A DNA stretch of 64,000 bases, from assembly GCA_004366385.1 (NCBI GenBank), contig SIRU01000051.1:62001-126000 (forward strand), given 5' to 3'. This document shows positions 230 to 41,817 of this stretch, piece by piece. The notes beneath the pieces were generated by a model. That model was not told the origin of the DNA. It made no database searches and worked only from the letters and a program-made list of their open reading frames with translations. How positions within the stretch are numbered: the stretch's first letter is position 1; each line of letters begins with the position of its first letter. The stretch is from Actinomycetota bacterium (GTDB lineage Bacteria; Actinomycetota; Thermoleophilia; Gaiellales; Gaiellaceae). The translations under genes were made by a program, and so were the position numbers.

Positions 230-2574
230 GGGTCTTCGCCGCTCCCGCCGGGCAGCCCCGGGCGCGCCGCGCGACCGACCTCGTGCTGCTCGCCTTCGCG
301 CTCGCGGGGCTCGCCGTCGCGATCGCCGCGTACCCGCCCTCGTCCTTCGAGCTCTCGCTCGAGCGGCTGCTCGCGAGCGTCCCCTCCTGGCTCGACCCGG
401 TGTGGGAGGCCCTCGCCGACCTGCTCTGGGTCTGGGCGCTCGCCCTCGTTCTCTTCGCGCTCGCGCGGCGGCGGCTCGTGGTCGTCGGGCAGGCCGTCGC
501 GTCCGTCGCCGTCGCCGTGCTGCTCGGGCTCGCCGCCGCCCGGCTCGCGCTCGGCGGCTGGCCGGACGTGACGGCCGCCGTCCTCGGCGGCGACCGTGGC
601 CCGCGCTTCCCGAACGTGCGCGTCGCGGAAGCGGCGGCGGTGATGGTCACCGTGGCGCCCCACCTCGTCCGCCCGCTCCGCGTGGTCGACCGCTGGGTGC
701 TCCTGCTCGGGGCGACCGGGGCGATGATCGTGGGCGGGGCGACGCCGTTCGGCACCGTCGCGGCCGTCCTGACCGGCGCCGCGGCGGCCGCGATCGTCCG
801 GCTGGCCTGGGGCACGTCCGTCGGGAGGCCGGGGCTCGGGGACGTCGCCGCCGGGCTCGCGCACCTAGGCGTCGACGCGCGAGGCCTGGACGACGCCGAG
901 CGGCAGGTCAAGGGCGTCTACCACGTCCGCGCGGTCGACGCGAGCGGCGCGCGGCTGCTCGTGAAGGTGTACGGGCGCGACGCGTACGACAGCCAGCTGG
1001 TCGCGAAGCTCTGGCGGAGCCTGTGGTACCGGGGCGAGGGGGTCTCGCTCGGGACGGGGCGTCTCCAGGCCGCCGAGCACGAGGCGTTCGTGACCCTGCT
1101 CGCCCGCAACGGAGGGGTTCCGGCGCCGGAGGTGGTCACCGCCGCGGCAACGCTCGAGGACGACGCGCTGCTGGTGCTGCGCGGGGACGTGCGCCCCCTC
1201 GCCGAGCTGGATCGGTCCGAGGTGGACGACGAGCTGCTGCACGGCGTGTGGCATGCCCTCGACCGGCTCGGGTCGCTGCGGATCGCACACCGTCAGCTGG
1301 ATCCGACGACGGTCGTGCTCGCCGACGGAGAGCCGGGGCTCACCTCGTTCGGTGCCGCCACCGTGGCCCCCGACGAGCACGGGCTCGCGACCGACCGCGT
1401 CCAGCTGCTGCTGACGACCGCGGCGCTCGCCGGCGCCGAGCGCGCCCTGGCGGCCGCCGAGGGCGCGCTGGGGCGAGACGAGCTCGTCTCCCTCCTCCCC
1501 TACGTGCAGGCCGCGGCGGCGACGCCGACGCTCCGCCGGGCGCTGAAGGAGGCGGAGATCGACGTCGACGACTTCCGCGACGAGGCGGCGGCCGCGCTCG
1601 GCGTGGAGGCGCCGGAGCTCGCGAAGCTTCGCCGCGTCTCGCCGCGCTCGGCGATCCAGATCGCGCTGCTCGCGCTCGCCTCGTACGCGATCCTGACGGC
1701 GGCGGGCGGCGTCGACTGGGACGAGGTGTCGTCGACCGTGGCCGACGCCTCGTGGGCCTGGATCGTCGTGGCGTTCCTCGTCGCCCAGCTCCCACGCGTG
1801 TCCCAGGCGGTCGCCACGCTCGGCTCGGTCCCGGCGAGGCTGCCGCTCGGGCCCGTGTACGCGATGCAGCTCGCGACCGGGTACATGAACGTGGCGCTGC
1901 CGTCGAACCTCGCGCGCCTCGCCGTCAACATCCGCTTCTTCCAGCGCCAGGGGCTCTCGGCGCCGACGGCCGTGGCCTCGGGCGCGATCGACTCGTTCGC
2001 GGCCACCGTCGTCCAGGCGCTGCTGCTCGCCGCGCTGCTCCTCTTCTCCCAGGCGTCGCTCGCAATCGATCTTCCCTTCCCCTCGGGCGACGCGCGCAGG
2101 CTGCTCTGGATCCTCGCCGCCATCGTGGTCGCATCCGTGCTCGTGCTGGTCGTCGTGCGCCGGATCCGGCGGCTGATCGCGGAGGGAGTACGGCGCTGGT
2201 GGCCGGACGTGCGCGACGCCCTCCGCGGGCTGCGCGCCTCGAACAAGCTCGGCCTGCTCGTCCTCGGCAACCTCGCGACCGAGGTGCTGTTCGCGACGGC
2301 CCTGGGGCTCTTCGCGCAGAGCTTCGGCTACGACATCAGCCTCGCGGAGCTGCTCGTGATCAACATCAGCGTCTCGCTGCTCTCGAGCTTCGTCCCCGTG
2401 CCCGGCGGCATCGGCGTCGCCGAGTTCGGGCTCACGCTCGGGCTCGTCTCGGCGGGCATGACCGAGGAGGCGGCCGTGGCCGCGGTGCTCCTGTACCGGA
2501 TCTCGACCTACTACCTGCCGCCCGTATGGGGCTTCCTCGCGCTGCGCTGGCTGGAGCGCAACCGCTACCTGTGA
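226..2574 (+). CDS. Flippase-like (LPG synthase TM/UPF0104) protein with a degenerate kinase domain
   Basis: A 782-residue membrane protein. Residues 1-195 hold several hydrophobic helices. About 205-460 resemble a protein-kinase or ABC1-like fold: a lysine in LLVKVYGRD, then HRQLDPTTVV where active kinases have HRD...N, and TSFG where they have DFG. The catalytic Asp, Asn and metal-binding Asp all look replaced, so this is probably a pseudokinase. From about 485 to the end is a multi-helix domain of the lysylphosphatidylglycerol synthase/UPF0104 family (motif SSFVPVPGGIGVAEFG), whose members move or modify membrane lipids. I see no soluble aminoacyl-transferase domain. The GTG start overlaps the upstream stop codon. 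The lipid substrate is unknown; a role in envelope lipid transport is inference. Confidence 0.8.
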   Translation: MRVFAAPAGQPRARRATDLVLLAFALAGLAVAIAAYPPSSFELSLERLLASVPSWLDPVWEALADLLWVWALALVLFALARRRLVVVGQAVASVAVAVLLGLAAARLALGGWPDVTAAVLGGDRGPRFPNVRVAEAAAVMVTVAPHLVRPLRVVDRWVLLLGATGAMIVGGATPFGTVAAVLTGAAAAAIVRLAWGTSVGRPGLGDVAAGLAHLGVDARGLDDAERQVKGVYHVRAVDASGARLLVKVYGRDAYDSQLVAKLWRSLWYRGEGVSLGTGRLQAAEHEAFVTLLARNGGVPAPEVVTAAATLEDDALLVLRGDVRPLAELDRSEVDDELLHGVWHALDRLGSLRIAHRQLDPTTVVLADGEPGLTSFGAATVAPDEHGLATDRVQLLLTTAALAGAERALAAAEGALGRDELVSLLPYVQAAAATPTLRRALKEAEIDVDDFRDEAAAALGVEAPELAKLRRVSPRSAIQIALLALASYAILTAAGGVDWDEVSSTVADASWAWIVVAFLVAQLPRVSQAVATLGSVPARLPLGPVYAMQLATGYMNVALPSNLARLAVNIRFFQRQGLSAPTAVASGAIDSFAATVVQALLLAALLLFSQASLAIDLPFPSGDARRLLWILAAIVVASVLVLVVVRRIRRLIAEGVRRWWPDVRDALRGLRASNKLGLLVLGNLATEVLFATALGLFAQSFGYDISLAELLVINISVSLLSSFVPVPGGIGVAEFGLTLGLVSAGMTEEAAVAAVLLYRISTYYLPPVWGFLALRWLERNRYL

Positions 2575-18381: not shown

Positions 18382-18423
18382 CTCCTCGCCGCCGTGACCG
18401 GCAGGGATCGGGTGCCAACTGAG

Positions 18424-18788
18424 TGGAGGCGGCGGGAATCGAACCCGCGTCCGCGGCCGCACCGGTCAGGGCATCTACGAGCGTAGTCCGTGCTTGATCT
18501 CACCCGGCGGCCGGTTCACGGACGACCAACCGACGGGCCAGCCATCCTGAAGTGTCGCGCTCCGGGCGATTGGCTCTCCCTCGGCGCCGAGCCCGATCGT
18601 TGGCGCCGGCTCCCGGGCCTCGGGCCCAACCCGGGTCGGCGTCGCCTTACCTAGTTCCTACTAGGCGGCGAGTGCGAGTTCGTCATGCTTCGCACTTGCG
18701 TTGGTGCCGGTTGATTTACGAGGCCAACCGGCGACCTCGGCTCGCAGCTCTGCCGGAGAACCGACCACGTCGAGACCTGGTCGCCCCC
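18424..18788 (-). ncRNA. ssrA: Transfer-messenger RNA (tmRNA)
   Basis: Read on the minus strand, the 5' end at 18788 begins GGGGGCG and the 3' end is CGCCTCC plus discriminator A at 18424. These form a 7-bp acceptor stem with one G-U pair. The T arm GCGGG-TTCGATT-CCCGC lies just before the 3' strand, and the 5' side continues ACCAGGTCTCGACG as in other tmRNAs. CCA is not encoded (CTC follows). An open tag frame ends in KHDELALAA and TAG at 18661-18663, with GTNASA before it; the exact resume codon, near 18709, is uncertain. tmRNA with SmpB frees stalled ribosomes and tags the nascent chain for proteolysis; smpB is 6 kb away on the same strand. Confidence 0.95.
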
Positions 18789-30425: not shown

Positions 30426-31082
30426 TCACCTGGTGGAACCGGGCTGAGCGGCAACCCGACTCCGCCCGCGCAGGAGGTCGCGCAGTAGCAGGCAGCCGGC
30501 GAGCCAGGCGAGGCCGAGGCACCAGCCGGCCACGACGTCCGTGACGAAGTGGACGCCGAGGACGACGCGCGAGAGGCCGATCGCGACGCCGAGGGCCGCC
30601 GTGAGCGACCACAGCCACGCACGCGGCCGTCCCGGCGGCATGCGCTCGCTCGCGAGGATGACGAGCGCGCCGAGGCTGGCGACGCCCGCCATCGCGTGGC
30701 CGCTCGGGAAGGCAGCGGAGGCCGGCAGGGCGACCGCGCTCCCGAAGTCCGGGCGCGGCCGGTCGAAGACCTCCTTCAGGAGCATCACGGCGAGCTGAGA
30801 CCCGAGGAAGGCGGTGAGGAAGAAGCCGAGGTCGACCCAGGCGCGCTCGCGGACGAGGAGCACGCCGGCCACGATCCCGAGCGCGGTCAGCCCGACCCAC
30901 CCTCCGAGCCACGAGAACGGACGCGCTGCCCACTCGAGCGCCACGGGCATGCTCGACGCGGCCCAGGAAGCGGTCTCCTCGTCGACCGTCGCCAGCGGCT
31001 CGTGCTCGTAACCGAGGGCGAGGAGGGCGAAGCCCAGGATCCCGAGGGCGAGGACGACGAGGTGCGCGCGGGCAGATCCCAA
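30426..31082 (-). CDS. PAP2-family membrane phosphatase
   Basis: 218 residues with five or six helices. The three phosphatase motifs are intact: KEVFDRPRP, PSGHA (in AAFPSGHAMAGV) and SRVVLGVHFVTDV, with the catalytic His in PSGH and the nucleophile His in GVHFVTD. Such enzymes dephosphorylate undecaprenyl pyrophosphate or phosphatidic acid at the outer face of the membrane. The substrate cannot be chosen from sequence. It sits alone between prfB and the repeat downstream of secA. Confidence 0.92.
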   Translation of the reverse strand: MGSARAHLVVLALGILGFALLALGYEHEPLATVDEETASWAASSMPVALEWAARPFSWLGGWVGLTALGIVAGVLLVRERAWVDLGFFLTAFLGSQLAVMLLKEVFDRPRPDFGSAVALPASAAFPSGHAMAGVASLGALVILASERMPPGRPRAWLWSLTAALGVAIGLSRVVLGVHFVTDVVAGWCLGLAWLAGCLLLRDLLRGRSRVAAQPGSTR

Positions 31083-31170: not shown

Positions 31171-31268
31171 GGCCGGAGGCCGGCTTCGCCGGCCGGGAGG
31201 TCGAGCGCGGTCAACCGGTCGCTGCGGCGAAGGAGGGGGCACGTGGGGGAACCATGGGTTCCCCCACG
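31171..31268. repeat. Two-hairpin intergenic element, copy 1 (after secA)
   Basis: 98 bases. Stem 1 is GGCCGGC-TTC-GCCGGCC (31178-31194). A shared spacer with GAGCGCGG and GAAGGAGGGGGC follows, then stem 2 GTGGGGGAACC-ATG-GGTTCCCCCAC (31243-31267). The secA stop codon begins 2 bases after stem 2. Copy 2 lies at 38888-38987 downstream of ahcY at the same distance. Stem 1 differs between copies by paired changes. Confidence 0.85.
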
Positions 31269-31269
31269 A

Positions 31270-33924
<2,655 letters not shown>

Positions 33925-36801: not shown

Positions 36802-37905
36802 TCAGAGCACGGGGGCGGCGAGGAGCTCGCGCAACCCGTCCTGCGAGCGCTCGAGGTCCTCGGGCGTCTTGATCGGGAAGAAGCGCCCGCGCGGGCCGGA
36901 GCGCGGGACCTCGAGGTAGGTCGTCTCGAGGAAGCGCGTGACCTCGTGGTAGACCCGCTCGAGCTGGACGGCCGCCCGTCCGTCCGTGGTCTTCTCGACG
37001 TACAGCCACGTGAGGTCGTACTCGCGGTCGAGCGCGTCCAGGTCGAAGAGCGCGGTGTTCGTGTTGAAGACCGGGGTCAGCGACTGGTCGAAGCCCGGCG
37101 GGAAGCGCGGCCCCTCGAGCAGCTGGAGCTGCCCGTCGACACGCACGGGCGCCCCGCCGACGTCGCCCTCCTTGCGCGCCACCTCGACGGTCAGCGGCCG
37201 CCCGGCGAGCACGTGCGAGCCGACCACCGCCGGGTCGACGCGCGCGCCGAGGTTGTCCACGTTCGAGACGGTGACGACGCGGATGCCCCGCCCGCGCAGC
37301 GTGTCGAGCACCCCCGAGCGCCGGAGCGCCTCGAAGAGGTCGCCGTGGCCGGGTGCGTACGGCGACGGGCGGCTGCCGCGGTCGCGGAAGAGGTCGCCGC
37401 TCGGCTCGAGCCGCAGCGAGACGAACTGGTTGAAGACGAGCGGCTCGCCGAGCCCGCGCTCGGCGACGAACGCACGGATGACCTCGTCCGTGGCGAAGCT
37501 CGTCATGAGCGCCGCCGGAATGGTCGCGTCGAGCGCCCGCTCGAGCTCGCGCGTCCGGCCGAGCTTCGCCTCGAGGAAGCTGAGCCCGTCGACGGCCTCG
37601 AGCACGGCCTTCACGACGCCGCCGAAGCGCGTCGCCATCCCGCCCGCGAGCACGACCTGCGCGACCTCGCCCCGCCGGAGAGCCTCGATCCCAGCCTCGC
37701 GCGCCTCGTCGTGGCCGGGCCGGCCGGGCTCTGCGAGCTGCGTCAGGTCGTCGGGCCGCGGCGGCTCGACCGTCCCGCGGACGACGTTCGTCTCGGGCGA
37801 GAGCTCGCCGCCTGCGACCCGCGCGCGCAACGTCTCGAACAGCTCCTCGTCGAAGCCGAAGCTCTCGAGCAGCGCGGCGGTCTCGCGGTCGATGCCCTCG
37901 ATCAT
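36802..37905 (-). CDS. UDPGP-family uridylyltransferase
   Basis: 367 residues from ATG at 37905 (4-base overlap with the mtnA stop). The eukaryotic-type UDP-sugar pyrophosphorylase family is indicated by [20 protein letters not shown] (nucleotide-binding loop), then [33 protein letters not shown] and [13 protein letters not shown]. It should make UDP-sugars (UDP-glucose or UDP-N-acetylhexosamine) from the sugar-1-phosphate and UTP. This is not the GalU family usual in bacteria. UDP-glucose would feed the Ugd encoded 4 kb upstream on the same strand. The sugar specificity is not resolved. Confidence 0.88.
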
Positions 37906-38867
37906 CGCGTGCTCCGCACCGGGACAGGGAGCGAGGCCGTGTACGGCGCGCGGTGCAGGCCCTCCTCGGTCACGATCGCGGCGACCAGCTCGGCGGGGGT
38001 CACGTCGAAGGCGGGGTTGCGGGCGGGGAAGCGCGACGAGATCTCGCCGGGGTCGCGCTCCTCGATCGGGATGCCCGCGCCGGTCGGGGTGTCGGGGTCG
38101 AGCGACGACGTGGGCGCGACGACGTACAGCGGCACCCCGTGGTGCGCGGCCGCGACCGCGAGCGCGTACGTGCCGACCTTGTTCGCCGTGTCGCCGTTCG
38201 CGGCGATGCGGTCGGCGCCGGTGAGGACGGCATCGACCTCGCCGGCTGCCATGAGCGAGGCGGCCGCCGAGTCCGCGATCACCGAGAACGGGATCCCGAG
38301 CTGCTCGAGCTCCCACGCGGTCAGCCGCCCGCCCTGGAGCAGCGGCCGCGTCTCGCCGGCCCACACGTGCGCGACGAGGCCGTCCTCCCACGCGGCGCGG
38401 ATCGCACCGAGTGCCGAGCCGTAGCCGCCGGTCGCGAGCGCCCCGGTGTTGCAGTGCGTGTACACGCTCGATCCCGGCCGGAGGAGGCCGGCCGCGTGCC
38501 GCGCCATCCGCCGGCAGCGCTCGACCTCGGCCTCGTGCAGCGCGAGGGCCCGCTCGGCCGTCGGCTCGGCGCGCAGCTCGTCGAGCGCCCAGCGCAGGTT
38601 CACCGCGGTCGGGCGCGAGGAGACGAGGACGTCGTACGCCGTGTCGAGATCCTCCCCGCGCGCCGCAGCGAGCGCGAGGCCGTACGCCGCTGCGACGCCG
38701 ATCGCGGGCGCGCCGCGGATCGCGAGCTCCCGGATCGCCTCCGCGACCTCGGCCGAGGTGCGGCAGCGCAGCTCCAGCTCTTCGTCCGGCAGGCGCCGCT
38801 GGTCGAGGAGGACGACCGCGTCGCGCTCGAGCCGAACGATGCGCTCGGGAGCGAGACCCTGCGTCAC
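37902..38867 (-). CDS. mtnA: S-methyl-5-thioribose-1-phosphate isomerase
   Basis: 321 residues, typical of MtnA. Key blocks are [38 protein letters not shown] (catalytic Cys), and [19 protein letters not shown] (catalytic Asp), ending with [18 protein letters not shown]. It converts methylthioribose-1-phosphate to methylthioribulose-1-phosphate in methionine salvage. Relatives include ribose-1,5-bisphosphate isomerase and eIF2B subunits, but these motifs fit MtnA. It lies downstream of ahcY with only the two-hairpin repeat between, linking two arms of S-adenosylmethionine by-product recycling. Confidence 0.95.
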
Positions 38868-38887: not shown

Positions 38888-38987
38888 GGCCGGAGCCGGG
38901 CTACGCCCGGCGGGAGGCCGAGCGCGGCCCGTTCCACGAGCGGCGCCGAAGGAGGGGGCCCGTGGGGGAACCATGGGTTCCCCCACG
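38888..38987. repeat. Two-hairpin intergenic element, copy 2 (after ahcY)
   Basis: 100 bases. Stem 1 is CCGGGC-TAC-GCCCGG (38896-38910), stem 2 GTGGGGGAACC-ATG-GGTTCCCCCAC (38962-38986), identical to copy 1 in stem 2. The stop codon of ahcY begins at 38991, about 2 bases beyond. Shared spacer blocks are GGGAGG, GAGCGCGG and GAAGGAGGGGGC. Confidence 0.85.
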
Positions 38988-38988
38988 A

Positions 38989-41817
<2,829 letters not shown>

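Follow-up and report, generated by a model that had tools for sequence, protein, structure and literature searches.

The window, which is the whole stretch of 64,000 nt analysed here, carries the same element of about 100 nt at two places on its minus strand, one base past the stop codon of secA and one base past that of ahcY. The part of secA examined is its 3' part (31270-31872, minus strand; SecA wing/scaffold and SEC-C motif) with the stop codon TAG at 31272-31270, and the next codirectional ORF, of the PAP2 family (30426-31082, minus strand), lies 88 bases beyond copy 1. The ahcY gene (38989-40245, minus strand), assigned to S-adenosylhomocysteine hydrolase by protein search, ends with TGA at 38991-38989, and an IF-2B/MtnA-like ORF with a GTG start (37902-38867, minus strand) follows 20 bases beyond copy 2. 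A sequence-only reading had placed the two copies at 31171-31268 and 38888-38987, and both exist there as it described; it had put them 2-3 bases from a stop codon, and the actual distance is exactly 1 base at both. The window also holds a tmRNA gene (18421-18788, minus strand, 136 bits).

The sense of the element is the minus strand, as for secA and ahcY, and its order from 5' to 3' is hairpin A, nG, an unpaired tail, a spacer of 26-28 nt and hairpin B. Hairpin A, CGTGGGGGAACC-CAT-GGTTCCCCCACG, is GC-rich with a stem of 12 bp and a 3-nt loop, and it has the same sequence in copy 1 (31242-31268) and copy 2 (38961-38987). The pyrimidine tail CCCCCTCCTTC (31229-31239 and 38948-38958) shows no variation among the copies of this genome. 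The spacer (31203-31228, 26 nt; 38920-38947, 28 nt) is variable in sequence and nearly constant in length. Hairpin B has the form GGCCTCCC-7 bp-GAA-7 bp-TCCGGCC, in which a GGCC/GGCC outer helix and an unpaired UCC on each side enclose a 7-bp inner stem with a 3-nt loop. The stem 1 of the earlier reading lies inside this outer helix and its UCC. Hairpin B is GACC-TCCC-GGCCGGC-GAA-GCCGGCC-TCC-GGCC in copy 1 (31171-31202) and GGCC-TCCC-GCCGGGC-GTA-GCCCGGC-TCC-GGCC in copy 2 (38888-38919), so that the stem covaries between the two. The palindrome pattern GTGGGGGAACC matches four times in the window (two sites on both strands), against 0.00 expected from shuffles.

Fold, covariation and arm-tail coupling

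Is the structure itself maintained? The change in one stem between two copies had been taken as covariation and hence as selection on structure, a step that two copies alone could not carry. Among nine copies of the own genome, five pairs are changed on both sides, and the covariation score was reached by none of 500 shuffles. In an alignment of 95 copies from many genomes, compensatory changes appear at 22 of 23 pairs and in 313 cells, whereas shuffles give 96 cells and sliding the pairing partners gives 69 at most. The 95-copy alignment was fitted to the covariance model and leans towards it; the nine-copy alignment is independent and points the same way. The whole-genome search, with its 17-18 copies, and the covariance test, both proposed by the earlier reading, came out in its favour, and they support a structure maintained by selection. 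Predicted pairing is strong in both hairpins, with a mean probability of 0.99 for hairpin A and a median of 0.93 for hairpin B. The spacer adds no third hairpin (mean z 0.07). Its length is 27-28 nt in 31 of 43 copies, and its identity between own copies is 61%, against 53% when shuffled, while the two modules reach 95% and 84%. Since the spacers are near random and the modules are conserved, the modules have been kept on old copies, which points to maintenance either by selection or by conversion.

The signal for a fold in the sense strand is modest. The pairs of hairpin A are 98% Watson-Crick, and the strand test counts 16 G-U against 3 A-C in it (p = 0.004, with related copies counted). An alignment-free strand test of hairpin B gave no significant preference. 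Because hairpin A is almost purely Watson-Crick, a palindrome acting at the DNA level has to be considered as well.

The copies include two subfamilies. Two-A arms (GGGGGAACC) go with one-T tails (CCCCCTCC), and three-A arms (GGGGGAAAC) with two-T tails (CCCCCTTC). This coupling of A-run and T-run is 78/4 versus 5/57 in Gaiellales (Fisher p = 4e-29) and 8/2 versus 0/7 in Peregrinibacteria and Omnitrophota (p = 0.002), both p-values being too small since the copies are related. It is equally strong for A and G at the outer arm base; base identity makes no difference, and Watson-Crick pairing of the tail with that base is thereby ruled out as the cause. The lengths of the G-run and the C-run follow each other only loosely. 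In Gaiellales, the coupling would be explicable by two subfamilies spreading jointly. Its recurrence in the other phyla, together with Omnitrophota variants that combine GGGGAAACC with CCCTTTCC, may hint at a direct contact between arm and tail. One such contact would be a pyrimidine-motif triple helix, in which the tail lies on hairpin A as a third strand and caps 3' ends of RNA (or of single-stranded DNA). The coupling does run in the parallel (mirror) sense, which neither Watson-Crick pairing nor DNA copying errors would yield. However, two co-spreading subfamilies would give the same pattern, the loose link of G-run and C-run lengths does not fit, and at neutral pH several C-plus triples side by side are disfavoured, so we regard a triple helix as a long shot.

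Copies, position and turnover

The own genome, a fragmented MAG in which some hairpins border assembly gaps, contains 17-18 copies and not merely the two that had been noted; about 11 are full length and the remainder consist of hairpin A and tail only. Hairpin B alone was not found in the window, and the weak genome matches that were inspected resemble coding sequence. Right beside some hairpins (L004 and L016 on C46, L010 on C27) the assembly turns to N and poly-C/G, and the strong stem thus seems to disturb sequencing or assembly. A covariance model, R1, was built from nine own-genome copies. Within the family (Gaiellaceae), 68 of 103 genomes carry 1-38 matches each, with the maximum in G022, while 399 genomes drawn from the class add only one genus of a second Gaiellales family. 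Loci within one search overlap, so that counts of copies refer to distinct sequences and not to independent events. Pattern-scan matches on named contigs likewise come from Gaiellaceae, Gaiella and Thermoleophilia MAGs. Matches of the pattern scan in Roseomonas were judged to be convergent ordinary terminators: their hairpin is longer, their tail resembles CTTCTTCTTT, and the model gave no match in the single genome to which it was applied.

Outside the class, a Peregrinibacteria genome of 0.8 Mb has five R1 matches. Two of these begin a single base past a stop codon, in one case that of a gene for a hisS-like anticodon-binding-domain protein. An incomplete Omnitrophota genome (G400) has 16, mostly hairpin A plus tail, before genes on the opposite strand. 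The related repeat of this genome, CAAGGGGGAACC-CAG-GGTTCCCCCTTG plus CCCCCTCCTTCAGAGGTCAAC, is reversed and lies about 20-80 nt before start codons (L349-L361), next to genes that include PlsX-like and RibF-like ones, named from N-terminal sequence. The modules also occur in other arrangements. Three tandem 130-bp units, each with hairpin A and tail, lie at L363 (G006/G404 C1:860700-862000). At L169 81-331 and L124 5279-5375, unrelated hairpins replace hairpin A before hairpin B, which indicates that the modules can be recombined. There was no match in 2.9 million viral contigs and no full-length match in phages or plasmids; the plasmid matches that did appear were weak and partial, spanning no more than 57% of the query.

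The position of the element follows a rule. Where the sequence reached far enough upstream, which was so for 141 copies, the hairpin begins 0-6 nt past a stop codon or tRNA end in 43, at 7-15 nt in 5 and at 16-30 nt in 17; on the opposite strand, only 5 of the hairpin starts fall at 0-6 nt. Gene calls outside the window are crude, and with such calling 34 of the 141 have no recognisable stop upstream within 300 nt. Nearly all copies in the own genome obey the rule, behind secA, ahcY, groEL, rplP and genes for an FeS-assembly protein, an oxidase and a histidine-kinase-like protein, and behind tRNAs for Pro, Tyr and Ile. In other genomes the upstream genes encode glutamate dehydrogenase (two genomes), RNase J, sigma-70, a cold-shock protein, an RpoZ-like protein, GroEL and a PdxS-like protein. 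Over all genomes, the upstream tRNAs also include tRNA-Ser and tRNA-Phe. Several own-genome copies face convergent genes. Others lie between codirectional, probably co-transcribed genes (rplP-rpmC, ahcY-mtnA-like, secA-PAP2, tRNA-Tyr to tRNA-Thr); a full terminator is therefore unlikely there. A separate arrangement exists at metH in two genomes (own genome C17, L009 about 1480-1800, minus strand; Gaiella sp., L157 about 2100-2450). A truncated second metH start of about 25 codons (...LDGSWGV) is followed by the repeat and then by metH, and the leader frame closes with ATGA, which overlaps the start of metH. At L009 the arrangement is preceded by a weak match to a SAM-II-like riboswitch (25.7 bits, threshold 36).

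How stable is the element at a given gene? The search behind tRNA-Pro(CGG) gave sequence for 30 genomes; in 27 of them a stem of at least 10 bp begins 0-14 nt past the tRNA, and the remaining three have a shorter one. At least four T in the next eight bases occur in two genomes only. About nine of these hairpins are hairpin A with tail, about seven are of a GGGGGAA type without tail, and the others are unrelated. The element thus fills a place where the family keeps a U-less 3' hairpin. Behind secA and ahcY it is absent in the four congeners examined (G005, G006, G007 and G010) and is therefore not a fixed ortholog there; on the same ground it is rejected as a 3' element conserved with either gene. 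In G006 and G007 a different palindrome, GGGGTCAGGTCT...AGACCTGACCCC, occupies the ahcY slot (L305 and L304), G022, of another genus, has the full element behind ahcY, and G013 has a related hairpin behind secA.

Possible roles of the element

What might the element do behind so many genes? The best explanation, for which we see an even chance, is a dispersed, REP-like two-hairpin cassette whose hairpin A forms or protects 3' ends, acting partially between codirectional genes. The cassette would be old in Gaiellales and would be the first thing transcribed past an ORF or tRNA. Hairpin A, very stable, GC-rich and followed by no U tract, would fold in the sense RNA and set or protect the 3' end of the upstream transcript, either by terminating transcription in the U-less (I-shaped) manner or by blocking 3'-to-5' exonucleases. 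Between codirectional genes its action would be only partial, lowering downstream expression. The tail and hairpin B, at near-constant spacing, might be an accessory site that a protein recognises or that folds together with hairpin A. We infer this 3'-end or intercistronic function, by which the upstream RNA would be ended, trimmed or protected, from the position, the fold, the tRNA-Pro slot test and the U-less hairpin ends published for GC-rich Actinobacteria. The copies in probable operons, the 34 without a recognisable stop and the modest sense-strand signal tell against it, and gene conversion could also keep modules on diverged copies.

Another explanation, less probable and yet to be taken seriously, is a selfish, non-autonomous mobile palindrome of the REP or MITE type that has no cellular role, is tolerated behind genes and is moved by some transposase, such as an enzyme of the HuH/Y1 kind that uses single-stranded hairpins. 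Such an origin would account for the lineage-specific presence, with the absences in four congeners and other palindromes at ahcY in two of them, for the tandem units and the amplification to 38 matches in G022, for the two subfamilies and for the sporadic families in Peregrinibacteria and Omnitrophota, and the family often carries genes for Y1 transposases. However, at 32 Y1_Tnp loci of the family, about 1.5 kb on each side gave no model match at E <= 1; dead copies would be expected to decay, whereas here the modules are conserved beside near-saturated spacers; placement at 0-6 nt on one strand is sharper than tolerance needs; and the viral, phage and plasmid searches revealed no convincing carrier. 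It is rather improbable that the element is a plain intrinsic terminator of this lineage, with hairpin A terminating, the tail in place of the U tract and hairpin B incidental. The occupied tRNA-Pro slot and the copies facing convergent genes agree with that, but arm and tail are conserved far beyond the needs of a terminator, hairpin B covaries independently, copies sit in probable operons, nGCCCCCUCCUUC and not a U tract follows the hairpin, and a scan for terminator patterns came up empty at both window copies.

The remaining explanations concern the level at which the element acts. A DNA site, as a protein-bound palindrome or cruciform with RNA not involved, would suit the Watson-Crick purity of hairpin A and the missing strand preference of hairpin B. 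We think it quite improbable given the orientation behind stop codons and tRNAs, the excess of G-U over A-C in hairpin A, and the unpaired tail and UCC loops, which are conserved on one strand only. Small RNAs that mimic the anti-Shine-Dalgarno sequence are represented by the CUCCUCCC-type RNAs of alphaproteobacteria, and on this model the CCUCCUU tail of a 3'-UTR-derived small RNA would pair with ribosome-binding sites in trans. The tail does resemble the 3' end of 16S rRNA and is invariant among own copies. But CCUUCUUC, the tail of the second subfamily, pairs poorly with GGAGG, and the coupling of the tail is with the arm of the hairpin and not with an outside target, which makes a trans-acting RNA very improbable, the least credible of these explanations. 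If the element does set RNA 3' ends, it would be a case of a repetitive cassette turned into its lineage's 3'-end device and swapped between genes.

Comparison with known repeats and terminators

The element is a structure-conserved repeat family in an order of abundant soil bacteria, placed near the stops of core genes and tRNA ends, and a search of 4227 Rfam families at gathering and relaxed thresholds assigned it to none; the tmRNA was the only hit in the window, and the best match to the element was RF02873 AS-traI (23.5 bits, threshold 99). No description of it in Gaiellales was found in the open-access literature. U-less 3'-end hairpins have been described for GC-rich Actinobacteria (PMC8269248, PMC8355165). 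These I-shaped terminators are alike in having a strong hairpin right behind genes, no U tract and the same tRNA-Pro slot; the element differs in that its primary sequence is conserved between copies and between species, that a second module covaries, and that some copies sit in probable operons. As to MITEs, the aligned copies have no terminal inverted repeats or obvious duplications, and relatives are too distant for clean empty sites.

The earlier reading had suggested an RNA 3' element or a REP-like cassette, which is still the best class, even though the element lacks the classical REP tags and, at the 32 Y1_Tnp loci searched, a RAYT gene flanked by it. In the aligned copies neither hairpin has a GTAG or GTGG head in front of it, and the opposite strand of hairpin B has GGAG. 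Another parallel is the CGTC-tagged REPs without a dedicated transposase (PMC3733652), which are also dispersed palindromes in genomes whose RAYT genes are never flanked by the repeats. That superfamily is defined by a CGTC tag, a stem of 8-9 bp, a loop of 4-5 nt and a CCA tail, whereas the element has a 12-bp stem, a 3-nt loop and neither that tag nor that tail, and Actinobacteria are not reported there. The element fits the general description of a REP: palindromic, extragenic, multicopy and often near stops. Like the REP/BIME of E. coli, Pseudomonas and Stenotrophomonas, it is a short, GC-rich, multicopy palindrome that lies in operons and in intergenic spaces 3' of genes, sometimes in tandem arrays. 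A share of those REPs is no more than 15 nt away from a stop codon (PMC12306157), and at this distance E. coli REPs are reported to stall ribosomes, so an effect of the element on translation may also be considered. It differs from REP/BIME in having two distinct hairpins whose order and spacing are fixed, and a tail that does not vary; its copies number tens rather than hundreds and occur across an order, with stems that covary. Can REP-type palindromes be maintained by function without the usual transposase? The element offers a direct test of this question.
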